Part shown: positions 10,116 to 19,353 of the stretch, piece after piece
How positions within the stretch are numbered: the first letter of the stretch is position 1
Layout of the letters: the number at the start of each line of letters is the position of its first letter
Source: Nitrosopumilus zosterae
GTDB taxonomy: Archaea; Thermoproteota; Nitrososphaeria; Nitrososphaerales; Nitrosopumilaceae
NCBI RefSeq assembly: GCF_025998175.1
Contig: NZ_AP026695.1
Location: 798,038-862,037, forward strand
Reading direction: 5' to 3'
DNA length: 64,000 nucleotides
Notes under the pieces: model-generated
Database searches by the model: none
Seen by the model: only the letters and a program-made list of their open reading frames with translations
What the model was told of the DNA's origin: nothing
Made by a program: the position numbers and the translations under genes

Positions 10116-11033
10116 CTAGACTATGTTAAATGCAATTACTGATATTATGATCATCACAACAACATGTTTTGTACCTGCAACATATGATCCTGACCCAATC
10201 TTTCCTGCAGCTAGTCCGCCAAAGACTGCCTCAATGATTGCCATGTTGAATAATCCTGATTCTAATTGGGCAATATCCATGTTGGCTAGCGAGCCAAACA
10301 ATCCTTCGGTACCACTACCTGATTCAAGTAATCCGTCCTGAACTTTTTCAATTTCAGTGAAAAAGCTAGTTGTTAGCAAAACTGCTACTGCTAAAAACAC
10401 CGCAAATGAAATGTATATTGTGTATGTATATGGTTGCAGTGCAGATTTTCTACTCTTTTCTATATTTTGCATGTCTGAAACGTGTTTTTGAATCATTTCG
10501 AGGTTTTCAGATACGTCTCCTCCAATTTTCATTGCCATCTCTAGCAGAACTGTAACCCTCCTTGCAACTCTAGTACCTGTCCTTTCTGCAAAGTTCTCAA
10601 AAGCATCTTCAATTGGTGTTCCCCAACTAATGTTGGCCCTAAGATTTCTCAATTCTGGTGTTAATGCTCCTAGATTTCTTTCACCTGCTTGCTCTATTGC
10701 TTTGATCAGGTTTGCACCACTCTGAACGGAACTTAGCAATGCAAGCAAAAAAACTGGGAGATTCCTGTCTATGCTGTCTCTTCTTTGTACTTCTTTTAGT
10801 TGGTGGATGGTTAATGGAATGACTCCTACAAGTATCCCAAAGATTAATCCTATGTCTCTGATTGTTGTAGATTCAGAAAATCCTGAAAAATAGAAACTCA
10901 TTGAAATTACACTAGTAGCTGCAATGATAGAAAATGATGCTGTTTTTAGAATTTCATTTTTTAGTATTGATTTTCTAGGTTCAATTACTGCGATTCTTCT
11001 TCTTTTAATTTTTCTTTTTTGTTTGCTTTCCAT
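10116..11033 (-). CDS. type II/IV secretion (TadC/ArlJ-like) membrane protein, second copy
   Basis: A 305-residue T2SF-domain membrane protein, the platform component of archaeal type IV filament machines. After a highly basic N-terminus (KQKRKIKRRRIAV) there are two membrane helices, a cytoplasmic T2SF domain (RNLGALTPELRNLRANISWG, then VLLEMAMKIGGDVSENLEMI), and membrane helices near residues 205-225, 260-280 and 285-305. It follows the first T2SF gene by 4 bp and is the last gene of the leftward ATPase operon. Paired T2SF proteins of about 300 residues recall TadB/TadC rather than a single ArlJ. Confidence 0.87.
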   Translation of the reverse strand: MESKQKRKIKRRRIAVIEPRKSILKNEILKTASFSIIAATSVISMSFYFSGFSESTTIRDIGLIFGILVGVIPLTIHQLKEVQRRDSIDRNLPVFLLALLSSVQSGANLIKAIEQAGERNLGALTPELRNLRANISWGTPIEDAFENFAERTGTRVARRVTVLLEMAMKIGGDVSENLEMIQKHVSDMQNIEKSRKSALQPYTYTIYISFAVFLAVAVLLTTSFFTEIEKVQDGLLESGSGTEGLFGSLANMDIAQLESGLFNMAIIEAVFGGLAAGKIGSGSYVAGTKHVVVMIIISVIAFNIV

Positions 11034-11037
11034 TTTT

Positions 11038-11958
11038 TTACCTCTTTGGAACCATGGTGTCCATCATGACTAACATCAATACCCCACTAAGTGGAATTAC
11101 TGCAAATGTTAGAATATTCATCAATGTGATCAAATCAAATCCTGCAAGGCTGGGACTCATTATGCCCATAATTGATAACATGATTACCGCTAATAACGGA
11201 AATACAATTAGCAGAATGGTGTAAATTTCTGCAACACTTCCCAGAGATTCTGTAGTTTTTTGCATCAACATCTTTTTTTCTTCGAGCTGAACTTTTGCTG
11301 TTGCATTGAAATATTCTTTGAGATCTCCTCCAGACTGAACTGTAACTACTGCACCTTCTAGCAATTCCGAATATGGTCCTGTTGGTGTCCTATGTATCAA
11401 ATCCTTAATTGCACTAATCAAATCCATGCCTAAAATGTCGATATTTCTTACAATGTATCTGGCATCCTTTACGATGTCTTCCTCTGTTTCTTCTTTTGCT
11501 ATTGCTTTGAAAATTCCTTCCAGTGTAAGGCCACTGGTTGCAAGAGTTGACATGTATCCTATGAAATGAGGGATTTCTTCTATGAGTTTTGAGGACCTAT
11601 TTGTCACCCTAACTTTTGGAATTATTTGTAAAATCCCAAATGTTATTCCAAATAACACCAGTCCTCCTAATACTGGAAGTAAAATCTCTAAACTTGCTGG
11701 TTGAATATTGATAAATTGTGCTGTCACAAATCCTAAAACTGCGCCACATGCACCTGCAATCATACTAAAGAAAATCATACTTGAAACATAGACCTCAAAT
11801 GGAATTGGCATCATTGCCTGTTTGATTGATTTATCCAATGATTTTAATTTTGGATGCAAAAATTTTACATGCTCATTTAGTAATTTGTAACTATACACAT
11901 GAATTTGCCCAACTGATTCTTCTTCGCTCTTTTTTTGTTTCTTTTCAGTTACATTCAT
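11038..11958 (-). CDS. type II/IV secretion (TadB/ArlJ-like) membrane protein, first copy
   Basis: A 306-residue T2SF-domain protein with two membrane helices at about residues 55-80 and 90-112, a cytoplasmic domain (EIPHFIGYMSTLATSGLTLE; AVVTVQSGGDLKEYFNATAK) and two helices near the C-terminus. It would form, with its neighbour, the membrane platform on which the ATPase assembles filament subunits. It lies 2 bp after the ATPase gene and 4 bp before the second T2SF gene, so the three are one operon. Confidence 0.88.
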   Translation of the reverse strand: MNVTEKKQKKSEEESVGQIHVYSYKLLNEHVKFLHPKLKSLDKSIKQAMMPIPFEVYVSSMIFFSMIAGACGAVLGFVTAQFINIQPASLEILLPVLGGLVLFGITFGILQIIPKVRVTNRSSKLIEEIPHFIGYMSTLATSGLTLEGIFKAIAKEETEEDIVKDARYIVRNIDILGMDLISAIKDLIHRTPTGPYSELLEGAVVTVQSGGDLKEYFNATAKVQLEEKKMLMQKTTESLGSVAEIYTILLIVFPLLAVIMLSIMGIMSPSLAGFDLITLMNILTFAVIPLSGVLMLVMMDTMVPKR

Positions 11959-11960
11959 GA

Positions 11961-13622
11961 TTATACCTCTAGTCTTTTTCTTTCGTAGAACCTTTCTGGA
12001 TCAGCATAATACTCCATAACGTTTGAAGTAACTTCTTTATGATCACGGATGTCGTTTTTAACCATCCATTCCAGAGCTAATCTCCTTTTTGTTAATTCGT
12101 AATTGATTTTTTCTTCACTGTCTCCGTCTCTTTCTTTGAGTTTTCTAAAAATTACACTATTTCCCATATAGTCATGAGTGTCTGTTTTTGGGTTCCATTT
12201 GAAAATTTCATGCGTTCTGATTTCTCCAGTTGTTTCATGAATTCCATCAATCTCTGATACCTGAATGATTCTTCTAGCTGATTTGTTGCCTACTCTGATT
12301 TTTAGTTGAAGTGTGATTAAATCAAGGCTGTTTGCGATTAACGCTTTTGGCACGTCCATTGGAGATGATGTTAATCTGGTAAGTGTCGCCTCTACTGAAT
12401 CTGCGTGTATGGATGAAAATCCTCCGTGACCCGTGGCCATTGCCTGAAACAAGGTGTATGCTTCTCTGCCTCTTGTTTCACCAACAATAATGATGTCTGG
12501 TCTTTGCCTGAGGGCAGCTCTTAGAAGATCAAATTGGTTAATTTCCCCAATTTGTGTATCTGTAAAGTTCTGTCGAGATACTGCAGGAATCCAATTCTCA
12601 TGAGGCAGGTTTAGTTCCTGGGTATCCTCTATGCTTACTACTTTTTCACCTGGCTTGATAAATGAGGCTAGGGCATTTAGGGCTGTAGTTTTGCCACTTG
12701 CAGTTCCTCCTGCAATGAGCATTGTTGATTTTTTTTCAGCCAAATACCACATGAATGCTGCAATGTCTACTGAGATTGTTCCAAATTTTATCAAATCAAT
12801 TATTGTTATTGGGTCTGCCCTGAATCTTCTAATTGTAAATGTACTGCCTCTTTTAGTAATTTCATGGCCCAATGTCAAATTGATTCTACTTCCATTTGGA
12901 AGCGACGCATCAATTATTGGGTCTGCCATTGAAACATGCTTTCCACAAACGTATGCCATTTTTCTTGAAAAATTATTTAATTCTGCATCTTTTTCAAAGA
13001 TGATGTTTGTTGGCATGGATTCGTGTTCTCTATGCCAAATGTAGATTGGTATGTTTGTACCATCACAACTGATCTCTTCAATCATATGGTCTCTCATCAA
13101 TGGCTCTATTTTTCCGAGATGAACGAAATCTCTAATTGCGTAATAATTTATTTTTGCTATGTTTTTTTTGGGAATGTTCAATCTGTATTTTTTAACCATA
13201 GATGCAATCTTCTTTTTTAGTCGTCTTTCAGCATCTTTCTTTGATTTGATATCTTGGAGTGATACTGTAAGTTCTGTCATGAGCAATTTTTTGATAATCT
13301 CAAAAGCTTTTTGATCTCTTTCTGATAGAACAGGTTCTATCACCTGATATCTCAGCCCTCCTTTTGCTGTTGGATCTTTTATTATTCCTGCATGAATTTC
13401 ATTACTGTCCCATTCTAATTTTGACAATGTCATAAACTGAGGAATTTTTGTATTGTTTTCTGCATTATTTGAAACAGTTTCTGGTTGATTTTTGATTGAT
13501 TTTGCAACCTCCTTAGTTTCCACACGTAATTTTTGCAGTTCTGATAACTTTTCTTTGAATATGTTTAGCCTCATTTTCAGGTTTAATACATCTCTGATGC
13601 GTTTTAACGCATGTTCGTCCAT
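11961..13622 (-). CDS. type II/IV secretion system ATPase (TadA/ArlI family)
   Basis: A 553-residue hexameric secretion ATPase that powers assembly of type IV-like filaments at the cytoplasmic side of the membrane. Walker A GGTASGKTT lies at about residues 304-312, the Asp box near 330 (EDTQELNLPH), and Walker B with the following Arg motif at about 376-386 (IIIVGETRGREA), followed by the His box (ATGHGGFSSIHAD). The N-terminal 110 residues are coiled and poorly conserved. It is the first gene of the leftward operon, starting at ATG 13622, with a 72-bp divergent promoter region shared with the zinc-binding gene at 13695. It resembles pilus/Tad ATPases as much as archaellum ArlI; no arlCDE/FGH genes are in the window. 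Confidence 0.93.
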   Translation of the reverse strand: MDEHALKRIRDVLNLKMRLNIFKEKLSELQKLRVETKEVAKSIKNQPETVSNNAENNTKIPQFMTLSKLEWDSNEIHAGIIKDPTAKGGLRYQVIEPVLSERDQKAFEIIKKLLMTELTVSLQDIKSKKDAERRLKKKIASMVKKYRLNIPKKNIAKINYYAIRDFVHLGKIEPLMRDHMIEEISCDGTNIPIYIWHREHESMPTNIIFEKDAELNNFSRKMAYVCGKHVSMADPIIDASLPNGSRINLTLGHEITKRGSTFTIRRFRADPITIIDLIKFGTISVDIAAFMWYLAEKKSTMLIAGGTASGKTTALNALASFIKPGEKVVSIEDTQELNLPHENWIPAVSRQNFTDTQIGEINQFDLLRAALRQRPDIIIVGETRGREAYTLFQAMATGHGGFSSIHADSVEATLTRLTSSPMDVPKALIANSLDLITLQLKIRVGNKSARRIIQVSEIDGIHETTGEIRTHEIFKWNPKTDTHDYMGNSVIFRKLKERDGDSEEKINYELTKRRLALEWMVKNDIRDHKEVTSNVMEYYADPERFYERKRLEV

Positions 13623-13694: not shown

Positions 13695-14864
13695 ATGAGG
13701 TGGAAAATATTGTTTAGAAAGAAAAATAATAATTCTAAATTTGAATCAAAACCTCCCCATAAAATAGGTGGCTTTGACAACCTGTCTTCTATTTTTAAGG
13801 GAAACTCAAATGAGCATAAAATTGACACTAATGATGAGGAATTATCTGTAAATAACCCTGTCTCAGTTGATGAATCTGACTCTCTAAAACCATCTACTAG
13901 TAAAGCGGTAAAATTAATCCAAGAAGTTCAAAATCTCAAAGATAGAACAATTATCCCATTCGTAGACTACAATGAAGGAAAATTATTCTATCCGATTCTT
14001 TCAAAAATAGGTGAGGTTCAAGATAACATTGCATGTCTTGATGATCTTGTCTCTGACGGTATTTTAGAGAAAAAAATTTATGAAAAATTAATTGTTTGTC
14101 CAATTCATCCTGACACTCATTCATCCAGCGTGCGCCTTTATTGCCCAAAATGCCATTCAATGAATGTTGAAAAATTAAATCTATTTGAACATAAGATGTG
14201 TGGCTATATCACCGAAAGTACGAATTTTGATTTTACAGACCCTGAAAATTCGCGCTGTCCTTCATGCAAGAAACAGATAAAAATTTTTGAAAAAGAAATA
14301 CGTGTTCCAGCAATGTGGTATCAGTGTATTGACTGTGTTGAAAAATTTGATAATGCTGTAATCAAATTACATTGCAGAAAATATGAGCATGATTTTGATA
14401 CAAACTCTGGACAATTCATTCCAACATATTGTTATAAATTAAAAAATTCTGAAACATCAATTAATTCTGATACCAATCAGATTAAAGATGATTTGCTAAA
14501 ACTATTGCAGGGATTTAATTTTGATGCAAAACTCAATATTTCAATAAAAGGAAAAAGTAATAACGTACATGAAATTCCAATTTACGGAAAGAGCAACATT
14601 ACTAATGAATCGATACTGATCTTTATAAAAAATCATCCCGATGGAATCAATCAATCAGATATGAATTATGTTTTAGTCCCGAAATTAGACATTGATCCTG
14701 AAAAGACCTTGCTTCTAACTATATCTGGAATTAATGAGGGCGTGGAAAATCTGGCAAATCATTATGGGATTCATTTAATCTCCGAATCTGATTTCTCGCA
14801 AATTATTGCACGTGTTGAAAAATTTGTTTCTGAATGGTATTCTGAGAATGGTGGAAAAAAGTGA
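13695..14864 (+). CDS. TackOD1-like metal-binding protein of the filament locus
   Basis: A 389-residue soluble protein. After a low-complexity N-terminus it has a Cys/His-rich central region from about residue 133 to 235, with CPIHPDTH, YCPKCHS, CPSCKKQ, and WYQCIDCVEKF, which suggests two or three zinc sites. This matches my memory of the thaumarchaeal TackOD1 output domain. The C-terminal third (IFIKNHPDGINQSDMNYVL to the end) looks like a separate alpha/beta domain. It heads the rightward operon, and its TGA overlaps the GTG of the next pilin-like gene (GTGA), so it is co-translated with filament subunits. A regulatory or assembly role at the filament is likely but unproven. Confidence 0.6.
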   Translation: MRWKILFRKKNNNSKFESKPPHKIGGFDNLSSIFKGNSNEHKIDTNDEELSVNNPVSVDESDSLKPSTSKAVKLIQEVQNLKDRTIIPFVDYNEGKLFYPILSKIGEVQDNIACLDDLVSDGILEKKIYEKLIVCPIHPDTHSSSVRLYCPKCHSMNVEKLNLFEHKMCGYITESTNFDFTDPENSRCPSCKKQIKIFEKEIRVPAMWYQCIDCVEKFDNAVIKLHCRKYEHDFDTNSGQFIPTYCYKLKNSETSINSDTNQIKDDLLKLLQGFNFDAKLNISIKGKSNNVHEIPIYGKSNITNESILIFIKNHPDGINQSDMNYVLVPKLDIDPEKTLLLTISGINEGVENLANHYGIHLISESDFSQIIARVEKFVSEWYSENGGKK

Positions 14865-15391
14865 AAAATGCCTTTTCTCACCCATTTCTAAAAAATCGCC
14901 GTGCTGTCAGCCAAGTAATGGGCAGTGTTGTAATTTTGGGAATTGTCAGCTCTGTTGGGTCTGTAATTTTATTTAACGGGATGAACAGTATTAGCGCATT
15001 TACATATGATTTGTCGTTTCATGAGGCATCCAAAAATCAAATTCATAGAGAAGATATTATATTTGAACACGTTCGATTTGAGCCTAATACAGACAATTTG
15101 ATAATCGATTTGGCAAATATTGGCACTGTTGAATCCACTATTGTTAGTATCACCATATTGAATATTGATAATCAGGAAATCATTTCAAATTGGGTTGATC
15201 TGGATCAAACTATACAGCTAAAAGATAATCGCCAACTAGTGTTGGATTTACTAGATGATGCACAAATAATATTGGTTCAAGGGTCTGGAACTTGGAATGA
15301 TCCTGCATATGTCAACTCTGAATATCGCATTTCATTAACCACTGCTAAGGGGAATTTCTTCACTACTGTAGCTAGTCCGTTTAACACATAA
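14861..15391 (+). CDS. pilin-like secreted protein 1 (class III signal peptide)
   Basis: A 176-residue protein with an archaellin/pilin-type N-terminus: a basic stretch KNRRAVS at residues 11-17 followed by a 20-residue hydrophobic helix. The prepilin peptidase would cut just after the Arg-Arg-Ala. The remainder is a beta-rich, outward-facing domain without Cys. The start is GTG 14861, overlapping the TGA of the upstream gene by 4 bp. Its position suggests a minor pilin or tip component. Confidence 0.8.
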   Translation: MKNAFSHPFLKNRRAVSQVMGSVVILGIVSSVGSVILFNGMNSISAFTYDLSFHEASKNQIHREDIIFEHVRFEPNTDNLIIDLANIGTVESTIVSITILNIDNQEIISNWVDLDQTIQLKDNRQLVLDLLDDAQIILVQGSGTWNDPAYVNSEYRISLTTAKGNFFTTVASPFNT

Positions 15392-15396
15392 TTGCA

Positions 15397-16104
15397 ATGA
15401 AATCAAAAAATATTGTTGACACATATGAGATGAGAAAAAACTCTCGTTTAAAACACCGAAGAGGTGTCACGGACATAATCAGTACAATGATGCTGATGGC
15501 AGTAACTGTTACTGGTGCAAGCACTCTAACTTATTTTATGAATGATGCATTTCTTTCAGGAAATTTGGGAACGACTTCTACACTTGAAGCATCATCTCTG
15601 AACATTCTGCTTTTAGCGTATGATACACGAGATTCTTCTAGGTTGTTGACATTGAATGATGTTGATAACAAATATGATTCGGTTTTGTGTCGCTCTAGCT
15701 GTAGTGGTAATCCAAATGACCTTCCTCTAAATGGTGGCACAGAATTTATTGTATTTCAAATACAAAACAATAATCTAAATTCAATTTTCCTGGAAAGAAT
15801 TTCCATTAACGGCATCTATTATTCTTGGGATGCTGCCACTTCTGGTGTAGTGTTGGATACTACTGTCCCATTAACTAACGGTAAATATCCTGCAGATGGG
15901 ATGTTCTCAATTTTACCTATTAGTGCAGGTTCAATTATTCAAAATGAAGATACTCAAATTCAAAGTGGGCAAACAGTAAATATTCTGGTCAAGTTGGATT
16001 CTGTTGATCCTGACATTCAACTCAACAAAGGAATTCGGTTGCTGCTAAATTCTGGACAGATTCAACCTGCAGAGTTTTTGATTGAAAGCGGTGGTGCACA
16101 ATAA
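15397..16104 (+). CDS. pilin-like secreted protein 2 (class III signal peptide)
   Basis: A 235-residue protein with a longer basic leader ending HRRGVTDI at about residues 22-29, then a hydrophobic helix (ISTMMLMAVTVTGASTLTYF). The mature part is beta-rich and contains a close Cys pair (CRSSC, around residues 93-97) that could form a disulfide. It begins 5 bp after the previous gene. It is probably a minor filament subunit processed by prepilin peptidase. Confidence 0.8.
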   Translation: MKSKNIVDTYEMRKNSRLKHRRGVTDIISTMMLMAVTVTGASTLTYFMNDAFLSGNLGTTSTLEASSLNILLLAYDTRDSSRLLTLNDVDNKYDSVLCRSSCSGNPNDLPLNGGTEFIVFQIQNNNLNSIFLERISINGIYYSWDAATSGVVLDTTVPLTNGKYPADGMFSILPISAGSIIQNEDTQIQSGQTVNILVKLDSVDPDIQLNKGIRLLLNSGQIQPAEFLIESGGAQ

Positions 16105-17888
16105 AATTTCAATCAAAGAATTTTGCCCAAAACAGACGAGGCTTGTCCTCTGTTGTGGGAGCACTATTCTTCACTGTATTGATGGTTGCAGGTTTTTCTG
16201 TTTTGAGTCTGGCTCTTGATGCTCAAACTGATATTGTTACCACTCAAAGAATTATCTCTGATGTAGAACTAAAAAAACAACAAGAACGATTTGGAATTGC
16301 AGTTTCAACCGATTCTAGCAATAAACTGGATATTTCTGTGACTAATTTCGGTCAAAATCCAGTAGAAATTTCCAGTTTTTGGATTATTAACAAGACATTA
16401 TCTTCTCAGCCTGCTACACGATATTCTGTAGATTATGATGATTCTTTTATCACTGGTGGTATTCCTTCTTCAATACTTGCATCTCAATCTCTTTACATGG
16501 TTCCTGATTCATATGACATCAAAGTAGTATCGTCATTGGGAACAATTGAAATTGCAGAATTAGTGGTAGGATCAGGTGGCTCTTCTATCAATAATCTGCG
16601 TTCAGTTCTTGTAACTGATCCTCCTGATGTGATTCTGGGACAAAACGTGACGATAGGGATGGTCGTTACAAACACTGGACAATTAAAAATCAACGATGTT
16701 GCTCCTTCTACCATTTCTGTAAATCCTCCTGGTGTTGTCGTTGGTTATTCTGGACCTAATCTGTCTTCAGTAGATTTGATTCCGGGTGAATCCATTTTGT
16801 TTTTGTGGGATTATACAATTGATGGAACTGCAGATACAAATGTTGATTTTTCAAATTTTGTAACTGGGTTGGATGCAAACAACAACTTGGTTCAAAGTAA
16901 TGTTGCATCTGACCAAAGTATTTTACGTGATCCGGCAAATTCAACTTCAGGCTCTGACGAATTAATTGTTTTGACACAAGATCTTTTGGCAAAACCTGAA
17001 CTGTTTATTGTGATGCCTGCTCCTTTTGGTGAATCTGGACAGCAAGGCATTTGGGGAATTAATGTTGTCAATCCTGTTGAAAAAGATCTCGAAGTAAGTA
17101 AGATTGTAATTACTGCAACATCTACAAGATATACTGGTGGTGACGAAATTTTTACTGATAATAATGGCAACGCCTGTCAAGCTCAACATGTTGATCCATC
17201 ATTGGGTGGAACATGGAGTTGTCCAATGCCCAATCAACTGATGTGGAAGAATCTTAACAATCCTGTATCTGTTCCTGGTTTATCAAATGTATCTTTCTTG
17301 GCATTAGTGGAACCTGGATTCATAGGGAGTAGTGGAGATTTTCTTGAAACTGTTCCTGTTGATGTGAGTGTGTATACTACTCTGGGGCAATTTGGCAAAT
17401 CTGGCTATGGTACGTCATATAACGAGGGCGCTACAACATTGCCAAATGTGTATCTGACGGATGTGCCTGGTTCTACATCTAATGCAAATATTCTTTCAAG
17501 CATTAATGGAATCTCTAGTGGAAATACAATCAAACTTAACGCAACTTTGACTGATTTTGATACTAATCTTAGTCACGTAATTCAGGCGACTGATTCTAGA
17601 TTAATCATTAACATTCCTAAAGGATGGAGTAATCCTTCAATACTAAATGCCCCTGGATTCACCATGGATCCTATTGAGATTTTTGCTGATGGGTCTTCAC
17701 AAATTGTAGGTGTTCTTAATTCTGATATTGCAAGTCCATTGGATACACAGACCATAGAATTTCAAGTCACTGCACCTACTGTTACATCAACTCAGCTTTA
17801 TGTAATGTATATTCTAGCCGATGGAATTAGTAGCGGCGATGTAGCCATTGGCCCATTGGCTGAAATTATTTTACAAGTAGTACCTTAG
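16101..17888 (+). CDS. large pilin-like surface protein 3, apparent ATA start
   Basis: A beta-rich surface protein of about 595 residues. Its N-terminus reads KFQSKNFAQNRRGLSSVVGA followed by a hydrophobic helix, the same class III signal pattern as the two preceding genes. Keeping that signal requires a start upstream of TTG 16143, but the frame from the upstream stop (16083) to there contains no ATG, GTG or TTG. The only start-like codon is ATA at 16101, which overlaps the previous TAA as ATAA, exactly as ATGA overlaps do elsewhere. With this start the leader is as long as that of pilin-like 1. The long ectodomain has CARDB/DUF11-like repeats (VTNTGQLKINDVAPSTISV). The alternative TTG start would remove the cleavage site. 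Confidence 0.7.
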   Translation: MKFQSKNFAQNRRGLSSVVGALFFTVLMVAGFSVLSLALDAQTDIVTTQRIISDVELKKQQERFGIAVSTDSSNKLDISVTNFGQNPVEISSFWIINKTLSSQPATRYSVDYDDSFITGGIPSSILASQSLYMVPDSYDIKVVSSLGTIEIAELVVGSGGSSINNLRSVLVTDPPDVILGQNVTIGMVVTNTGQLKINDVAPSTISVNPPGVVVGYSGPNLSSVDLIPGESILFLWDYTIDGTADTNVDFSNFVTGLDANNNLVQSNVASDQSILRDPANSTSGSDELIVLTQDLLAKPELFIVMPAPFGESGQQGIWGINVVNPVEKDLEVSKIVITATSTRYTGGDEIFTDNNGNACQAQHVDPSLGGTWSCPMPNQLMWKNLNNPVSVPGLSNVSFLALVEPGFIGSSGDFLETVPVDVSVYTTLGQFGKSGYGTSYNEGATTLPNVYLTDVPGSTSNANILSSINGISSGNTIKLNATLTDFDTNLSHVIQATDSRLIINIPKGWSNPSILNAPGFTMDPIEIFADGSSQIVGVLNSDIASPLDTQTIEFQVTAPTVTSTQLYVMYILADGISSGDVAIGPLAEIILQVVP

Positions 17889-17961: not shown

Positions 17962-19353
17962 TTATGATCCCATGGTTGGGTCAATCATAACATAGTTTAT
18001 TTTGTAGACTTTGCCCGAATCAATTCCTGAACATCCAAGAAACACCATAAGGTTATCTGTTGGATTCATTGGCAGGTTTCCGTCATTGTCTCTTAGGAAA
18101 TCTGATGTACTGTCATGGGCAATTATTCTCTCAAGTCTACAATCTGCATTTGTTGCACCTTCATCTGGATCAATTGTTTTTTCAACTACGCTGAATAGAA
18201 CAATTGTATTTGTCGAAGATAATTCAGAATCAACAATTCCTATGTTTCCACTGTCTCCGATTATCTGTATGCATGGATCTGTTTTGATTCCATTGACATA
18301 ATGATCACAACTGTCTAGAGTATCTATGGCTGTCTCTTCAATGTTTATTTCCATTGAGTTATTTTGGAAAACAATTCCTCCTGGTCCTCCAGAACCGTCA
18401 CCATTGTCGTCATTGTATATTGTACATGTGATGCTTTTGCCTTTTTTAATGGTAAATTCTTCTTCAACCATTGTTGGACATTGATTGTCTCCTGTGATTA
18501 GAACAGTAGTGTATGTGGCGGTGACTGTATCGGCAATTGATTCGGAAATCTTGTACGTGCCAACAGGGACTTTGTTTAGATTAACTAGTGGGTCTGATGA
18601 TTCGTCCTGATCATGATTCAAGATGATCTCTTCATTTGTTTCCACGTTAGTTAACATAATTGTAAAGTCTGCTGGAGCGGCATCTCCGCCATTATCGTTT
18701 GTGATGGCTTTTCTTATTGTGATGCTGCCCATTTTAACAGGGTCGTCTTCACAAGTAAGAGGATCTGATTCTGAAATTGATGTTTCACTATTTTTCAAAC
18801 CATCTGTGATTTCTACTGCATAACCGCTATTAATCACTGTCAATCCTTTGTAAAGTGGCTGCGAACATGATGTATGTATTTCCATTGAAGAAACTAACAC
18901 GTCATCCTGGTTTTCTACAATTTTATAAATCGCAATAACCGTGTTTGAATTTAATTTATCTTTTCCAAAGTTAGATGATTCGATTTGATAATCTCCTAAA
19001 TTTGTAACACCTACAATACTCATCAATTTTTTATCCTTATTACCTATGTCGTTTAGTTTTTTGTAAACTTCAATTTTGAATTCACTGTCTATTTCTCCAC
19101 TTGGTGTAGAAAAGATGAACTTGAGCGTGTCTGGTTTTTCACAATCACATGGATCTTTTGGTTCATTATCACAGTCATCATGTCTATTCTTATCATGATG
19201 TCTATCATCACAATCATCATAGTGGTAATTATCATGATTATCATGGTTACCTCCATATGTTGAAAATGCATTTGGAGTTTCTGACACAAATCCGCCAATA
19301 ATCAATATTGCCGCAATTGTTGAAATTGTCAAAGTCGTCTTTAATTTTGTCAT
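17962..19353 (-). CDS. secreted His/Asp-rich protein with SpaA/prealbumin-like domain
   Basis: A 463-residue protein with an N-terminal signal peptide or anchor (LTISTIAAILIIGGFVS). Residues about 34-72 are extremely rich in His, Asp and Asn (DDRHHDKNRHDD) and end in a Cys-Asp-Cys cluster, a likely metal-binding segment. A domain at about 210-320 (GSITIRKAITNDNGGDAAPA ... VPVGTYKISES) resembles the prealbumin/SpaA-like folds of bacterial surface proteins. The C-terminal part has several Cys residues. It is convergent with pilin-like 3 and divergent from the major pilin, so it sits inside the filament locus. Role as a surface metal-binding or adhesive protein is inference. Confidence 0.65.
   Translation of the reverse strand: MTKLKTTLTISTIAAILIIGGFVSETPNAFSTYGGNHDNHDNYHYDDCDDRHHDKNRHDDCDNEPKDPCDCEKPDTLKFIFSTPSGEIDSEFKIEVYKKLNDIGNKDKKLMSIVGVTNLGDYQIESSNFGKDKLNSNTVIAIYKIVENQDDVLVSSMEIHTSCSQPLYKGLTVINSGYAVEITDGLKNSETSISESDPLTCEDDPVKMGSITIRKAITNDNGGDAAPADFTIMLTNVETNEEIILNHDQDESSDPLVNLNKVPVGTYKISESIADTVTATYTTVLITGDNQCPTMVEEEFTIKKGKSITCTIYNDDNGDGSGGPGGIVFQNNSMEINIEETAIDTLDSCDHYVNGIKTDPCIQIIGDSGNIGIVDSELSSTNTIVLFSVVEKTIDPDEGATNADCRLERIIAHDSTSDFLRDNDGNLPMNPTDNLMVFLGCSGIDSGKVYKINYVMIDPTMGS

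Follow-up and report, generated by a model that had tools for sequence, protein, structure and literature searches.

A recurrent AUA at a stop/start overlap as the likely start codon of a pilin-like gene in Nitrosopumilus, and further apparent near-cognate starts in Nitrosopumilaceae

Where does translation begin in a reading frame that encodes a pilin-type signal and has no ATG, GTG or TTG in front of it? A pilin-like gene of Nitrosopumilus zosterae raises this question. The gene lies in a window of 64,000 nucleotides, to which positions refer unless marked otherwise. The genome carrying the window is a single contig of 1,775,052 bases. The features at the gene junction are the following.

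16101-17888, plus strand: gene for the pilin-like surface protein; counted from the AUA, 595 codons and a stop
15397-16104, plus strand: pilin-like 2, the upstream, putatively coupled gene
16083-16085, plus strand: in-frame TGA that bounds the possible start region on the upstream side
16090-16096, plus strand: Shine-Dalgarno-like GGTGGTG with a perfect GGTG core, ending 4 nt before the AUA
16101-16103, plus strand: candidate AUA start codon; nothing else that resembles an initiation codon occurs from the in-frame TGA to the cleavage motif
16102-16104, plus strand: TAA stop of pilin-like 2, sharing bases with the AUA as ATAA
16134-16142, plus strand: RRG, the predicted prepilin-peptidase motif, kept in orthologues
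16143-16145, plus strand: TTG, encoding the first residue past the predicted cut and not a start

From the TGA at 16083 to position 16101, the frame of the pilin-like gene reads AAG CGG TGG TGC ACA ATA, and the codons that follow the ATA are AAA TTT CAA TCA AAG AAT TTT GCC CAA AAC AGA CGA GGC and then the TTG at 16143. An earlier, sequence-only reading had stated that this region lacks a canonical start, and reading it codon by codon agrees: no ATG, GTG or TTG occurs in frame between the TGA at 16083-16085 and TTG 16143. The class III signal that had been placed just before this TTG is also present. The RRG at 16134-16142 (LSSVVGALFFTVLMVAG) lies between the TGA and the TTG, is directly followed by LSSVVGALFFTVLMVAGFSVLSLAL, and constitutes the basic-basic-G motif with a hydrophobic helix next to it that is expected of an archaeal type IV pilin. 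The proposed overlap with the previous gene holds as well, given that the upstream reading frame (15397-16104) ends in the TAA at 16102-16104. The stop and start codons thus overlap as ATAA, in the manner of a termination-reinitiation pair.

Two comparisons made within the operon stand only in part. The overlap had been likened to GTGA and ATGA overlaps elsewhere in the operon; pilin-like 1 does have such a GTGA (14861), whereas the ATG of pilin-like 2 (15397) lies 5 nt after the preceding stop. The leader had been described as equal in length to that of pilin-like 1. It is nearly so, but there are 14 residues up to the G of RRG here, compared with 15 in pilin-like 1.

A family-wide search yielded about 50 orthologues of full or nearly full length, and we read the start regions of those for which they were available. 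A four-base overlap with the upstream stop is common to nearly all of them, the start being an N-T-G/A triplet placed on the stop. The leaders are 4-15 codons long and in frame in all close orthologues, and every close orthologue keeps both the RRG and the frame running from the overlap. At the position of ATA 16101, relatives have ATG, GTG or TTG, and other lineages have ATA. Among the tree rows counted, the start codon is ATG in 29, ATA in 13, GTG in 4 and TTG in 1.

These orthologues bear directly on a start at TTG 16143, with the codons before it left untranslated. This TTG is the first canonical codon of the open frame, but a protein beginning there would have no signal peptide, since the residue follows the cleavage motif. 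Two sister species, G119 and G083 (L003 and L004), have CTT here, which refutes such a start, and others have TTA, CTG, ATT or ATA; the next canonical codons fall within the membrane helix. A homologue starting at the TTG, which would have spoken against the proposed AUA, was sought among the relatives and none was found. We regard initiation at this TTG as scarcely credible. Comparison with relatives thus indicates that a start at the overlap is necessary.

Given that ATA is one base away from ATG, a sequencing or assembly error that hides a true ATG has to be considered. However, the three closest species (G138, G119 and G083) carry ATA at the identical stop/start overlap, as do unrelated lineages, and several of these genomes are single contigs. 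The same-locus comparison that had been proposed as a check therefore finds ATA in four separately sequenced close species, and an error is so improbable as to be almost negligible. The recurrence in independent genomes and lineages confirms, at the level of sequence comparison, that the ATA at the overlap is real and goes beyond chance.

In nine genomes (G000, G138, G119, G083, G137, G131, G115, G221 and G216) the ATA is obligate, as no ATG, GTG or TTG precedes the cleavage motif. The leader is only four codons long in G221 (ATA AAA CGC GCA) and in G216 (ATA ACG CGG GGA). In six other genomes the start is ambiguous because an in-frame ATG follows the ATA: a later one in G089, G102 and G136, and one only 1-2 codons further on in G086, G037 and G229. 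In G115 (L026) the overlap reads ATAG and a TGA lies inside the gene; this copy of the pilin-like gene is likely decaying.

On a maximum-likelihood tree built from the mature protein, the codon must have switched between ATA and a canonical start at least six times. In f8, which belongs to the same order and serves as outgroup family, the codon is ATG or GTG where it is readable. The step from ATGA to ATAA is a single G-to-A change that turns ATG into ATA and retains the upstream stop (TGA becomes TAA), and the reverse change restores ATG. The sequence-only reading had offered two possibilities, genuine initiation at AUA and loss of an ATG by a mutation that left the gene with weak initiation. 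Both fit, given ATG, GTG or TTG in most relatives and outgroups; ATA arose on several occasions and has persisted in genes that function.

That these genes are functional is the point on which a further explanation, in which the start was lost and the gene is a decaying pseudogene in the ATA lineages, can be judged. The internal TGA of the G115 copy is in line with decay, as is the absence of the gene from many genomes of the genus. The frame nevertheless stays open for about 595 codons, and the four closest species share 90-97% amino-acid identity at a fourfold-site divergence of 18-52%. G221 and G216 likewise show 80% amino-acid identity at 55% fourfold-site divergence. Because amino-acid identity is high while fourfold sites diverge, the ATA genes are under strong purifying selection, and decay is a very improbable account of them. 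This selection on the protein does not extend to a demonstration of selection on the start codon. At comparable synonymous sites, an A-to-G change is seen in only about 4-17% among the four closest species. Since such changes are few, retention of ATA in these four species is not proof of selection; its conservation among them does not exceed the neutral expectation and is compatible with neutral drift.

The 3′ end of the 16S rRNA is GGATCACCTCCT (genome position 741320). A GGTG core lies 3-14 nt upstream of the start in all 18 of the non-ATG rows, compared with 6 of the 29 ATG rows. For ATA rows alone the proportion is 13/13 against the same 6/29 (Fisher p 1e-6, relatedness ignored). When relatedness is considered, independent pairs of non-ATG versus ATG divide about 5.5 to 0 (median p 0.03), and those of ATA alone versus ATG about 3 to 0, which is too few to test. 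Shine-Dalgarno duplex energy does not differ significantly between ATA and ATG rows (p 0.11). Because of this result, and because the GGTG measure was picked after the sequences had been seen, we take the association of GGTG with weak starts as supporting and not decisive.

We also looked for specialized initiation components. A special initiator tRNA was sought, but the initiator has the ordinary CAU anticodon, and no tRNA with a UAU anticodon was found. AUA would therefore be read by this same initiator, mismatched at the third base, and the product would be expected to begin with methionine. A weak start on the gene for aIF1 was sought by analogy with infC autoregulation; the genome does contain an aIF1 gene, but its start is ATG.

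Ribosomes could conceivably also enter the frame by slipping back one base (a −1 frameshift) as they finish pilin-like 2, which would give a fusion protein. Both frames do meet at the stop, one base apart. The codons before the stop, however, vary (CAA, CGA, AGA) and are not slippery, and the signal peptide would be buried in the fusion. We find a frameshift hardly believable here.

The surroundings of the gene are those of a pilus system, with these further features.

13695-14864, plus strand: gene for a TackOD1-domain protein, which opens the set (Pfam PF18551, E 2e-21)
14861-15391, plus strand: pilin-like 1, whose GTG start shares bases with the stop before it (GTGA)
10116-13622, minus strand: divergent pilus assembly genes (Pfam PF00482 twice, PF00437)
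10116-11033 and 11038-11958, minus strand: two T2SSF/TadC-like membrane proteins (PF00482)
11961-13622, minus strand: T2SSE ATPase (PF00437)

The operon thus runs from the TackOD1 protein through pilin-like 1 and pilin-like 2 to the AUA gene, divergently from the secretion ATPase and the two TadC-like genes. The adjacent T2SSE gene and two T2SSF genes supply the linkage to assembly genes that is expected for archaeal type IV pilins. The protein itself has a class III type signal peptide, a long N-terminal helix and several beta-rich Ig-like domains. In an AlphaFold model (mean pLDDT 77), a helix of about 50 residues (12-61) is followed by beta strands, and a fold search of the PDB returned only generic multi-Ig proteins (TM about 0.17). 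A Pfam profile search gave no match to Pilin_N, and we therefore call the protein pilin-like only. The product of the AUA gene is large and pilin-like, and may serve as a minor or tip pilin. Directly downstream, on the minus strand (17962-19353), is a convergent surface-protein gene with a SpaA-like prealbumin fold and DUF7467.

The class III motif, N-terminal helix, beta-rich body and location beside T2SSE and T2SSF genes are shared with archaeal type IV pilin-like proteins, minor pilins and adhesins and their systems (PMC4858521). Unlike typical archaeal pilins, the protein is large, at about 600 aa, and lacks the Pilin_N match. The junction resembles the ATGA-overlap termination-reinitiation pairs of archaea and bacteria in its four-base overlap and in the Shine-Dalgarno site inside the upstream gene. 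The survey of such pairs covers ATGA and TGATG overlaps and makes no mention of ATAA, which is the form found here (PMC6728339).

We consider it very likely that the gene is translated from the AUA at 16101, probably by termination-reinitiation assisted by the Shine-Dalgarno site. Ribosomes ending pilin-like 2 would stop at the UAA that shares two bases with the AUA, and the Shine-Dalgarno site inside pilin-like 2 would hold the small subunit at the junction. The initiator tRNA-Met (anticodon CAU) would then read AUA weakly because of the third-base mismatch. The G-to-A change from ATGA to ATAA would leave a valid upstream stop and weaken the downstream start. The result would be a low, fixed ratio of the large pilin-like protein to the upstream pilins, which would suit a tip or minor pilin. 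In this scheme, the coupling, the reduced yield and the usefulness of a low yield are what we infer beyond the comparative evidence.

Near-cognate starts are established in bacteria: infC begins with AUU in E. coli and with AUA in S. aureus, ccpN with AUA and cvfC1 with AUU (PMC13009471, PMC5472188). The AUA starts of S. aureus infC, ccpN and citZ have extended Shine-Dalgarno sequences, and in S. aureus reporters the tested non-canonical starts with a strong Shine-Dalgarno sequence, AUA included, gave about 10-30% of the AUG level (PMC13009471). The GUC start of Streptomyces sigR is an example of weak initiation fixing the proportion between coupled products (PMC5472188). The pilin-like gene resembles these bacterial genes in that a one-base departure is kept across species in a functional gene, with a Shine-Dalgarno site that may likewise be strong. 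It differs in its archaeal host, which has aIF1 in place of IF3 as fidelity factor, in the overlap of its start with the upstream stop and in the many flips between the ATA and ATG states.

We then asked whether the gene stands alone. The genome was scanned in stretches, with coding potential scored and all stop/start overlaps examined, and the pilin-like gene emerged as the clearest ATAA case. The strongest other ATAA candidate with a long leader, a DsbA-like gene (genome position 938376), was rejected: many relatives have upstream stops, and nearly all keep a TTG or ATG downstream. The failure of this candidate indicates that comparison with relatives can reject a proposed start, and it served as a negative control.

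A broader scan sought genes with a coding signal upstream of the first ATG, GTG or TTG, which were then checked in relatives. There were five positives, located on contig C1.

80592, plus strand: lolD-like ABC ATPase (L227-L256)
165410, minus strand: Lrp/AsnC-type regulator (L257-L286, L371-L390)
About 420475, plus strand: ATP-cone/nuclease-like gene (L317-L340)
About 676492, plus strand: carA (L287-L316)
1364156, minus strand: pckA, PEP carboxykinase (L341-L370)

In the lolD-like gene, CTG is found 9 nt after GGAGG in 30 of the 30 genomes read, although its conservation is partly constrained because this CTG also lies within the end of the upstream gene. For the Lrp/AsnC-type regulator, the codon is ACG in each of the 30 Nitrosopumilus genomes read, with a stop codon immediately before it and GGTG as its Shine-Dalgarno sequence. 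Across genera, its start is ACG in g1, g5, g11, g13 and g16, TTG in g15, g17 and family f3, GTG in g4, and ATG in g2, g3, g9, g14, g18, g21 and families f2 and f8. For carA, the start position, which follows GAGGGT, is ATT in 25 genomes and ATA in 5. No ATG, GTG or TTG occurs near the conserved N-terminus, the first ATG in G000 being about 43 codons further on, and in several genomes an indel of a single base, located a few bases upstream, prevents translation from beginning earlier in that frame. The start of pckA is CTG in 26/30 genomes, TTG in 3/30 and ATG in 1/30, and upstream of it is TGGAGG or TGGAGA, a GGAGG-type Shine-Dalgarno sequence. Of the 22 copies of the ATP-cone/nuclease-like gene that could be read, 17 have ATA, 2 have GTG and 3 have ATG; the gene shows neither a consistent Shine-Dalgarno sequence nor an evident overlap with the stop of an upstream gene.

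The exchange with canonical codons at a fixed position, as seen in lrp/asnC, pckA, the ATP-cone gene and the pilin-like gene, would be the behaviour of a start codon. By sequence comparison, at least six genes of this organism, the pilin-like gene among them, seem to begin with near-cognate codons. It is probable that Nitrosopumilaceae routinely use AUA, AUU, ACG and CUG as conserved, mostly Shine-Dalgarno-assisted weak starts, in a gene set that includes the pilin-like protein, the Lrp-type regulator, carA, pckA and the ABC ATPase.

Some other observations were made along the way. At about 49888 on the minus strand of the window, a gene of 178 codons has a coding signal that extends 42 codons upstream of its first ATG, and possibly a near-cognate start. 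In G103, G104 and G106, carA lies within an open frame of 1472 aa, which suggests a carA-carB fusion. In carB (C1, about 677800, plus strand; L288, L298 and L300), the conserved motif IGEAGEFDYSGS is interrupted by a 21-nt in-frame insertion, GAGTCGCTAAAACGACCGTCA, that contains an in-frame TAA and a GTCG/CGAC hairpin. The insertion is present in four genomes and absent from nine others read, and could be a mini-intron cut by the tRNA-splicing endonuclease, or reflect another recoding.

The additional genes matter for the purpose of the AUA in the pilin-like gene. The codon could be in use and merely tolerated, as a product of mutation bias and a preference for UAA stops, with no regulatory benefit. 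This account accepts the AUA start and departs from the favoured explanation on purpose alone. The genome is AT-rich (34% GC), TAA is its commonest stop and the rate of A-to-G reversal is low, all of which agree with tolerance. Against it are the genus-wide near-cognate starts at which no overlap is involved (ACG in lrp, AUU/AUA in carA and CUG in pckA), which indicate that weak starts can be kept. Mere tolerance is, in our estimation, a serious possibility but somewhat doubtful, and a weak start held by the Shine-Dalgarno site and setting a low pilin ratio is the explanation that we favour.

Given the bacterial precedents, conserved near-cognate starts, AUA among them, are not new in themselves; the archaeal instances may be. 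A 2020 review gives AUG, GUG and UUG as archaeal starts (PMC7531240), and a 2021 review describes archaeal non-canonical translation events as demonstrated only at elongation and termination (PMC8211752). We found no report of an archaeal AUA start within the limited literature that we searched. We rate the set of six genes as more important than the single AUA gene. These evolutionarily supported near-cognate starts occur in abundant marine archaea, some of which are in culture, so that start fidelity can be tested on natural genes and the fidelity factors aIF1, aIF2 and Shine-Dalgarno strength become open to testing in archaea. Gene models of lrp, carA, pckA and other genes may be wrong at the N-terminus. 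If the weak starts are real, they would amount to a layer of archaeal translational control that has been missed by gene finders restricted to ATG, GTG and TTG.
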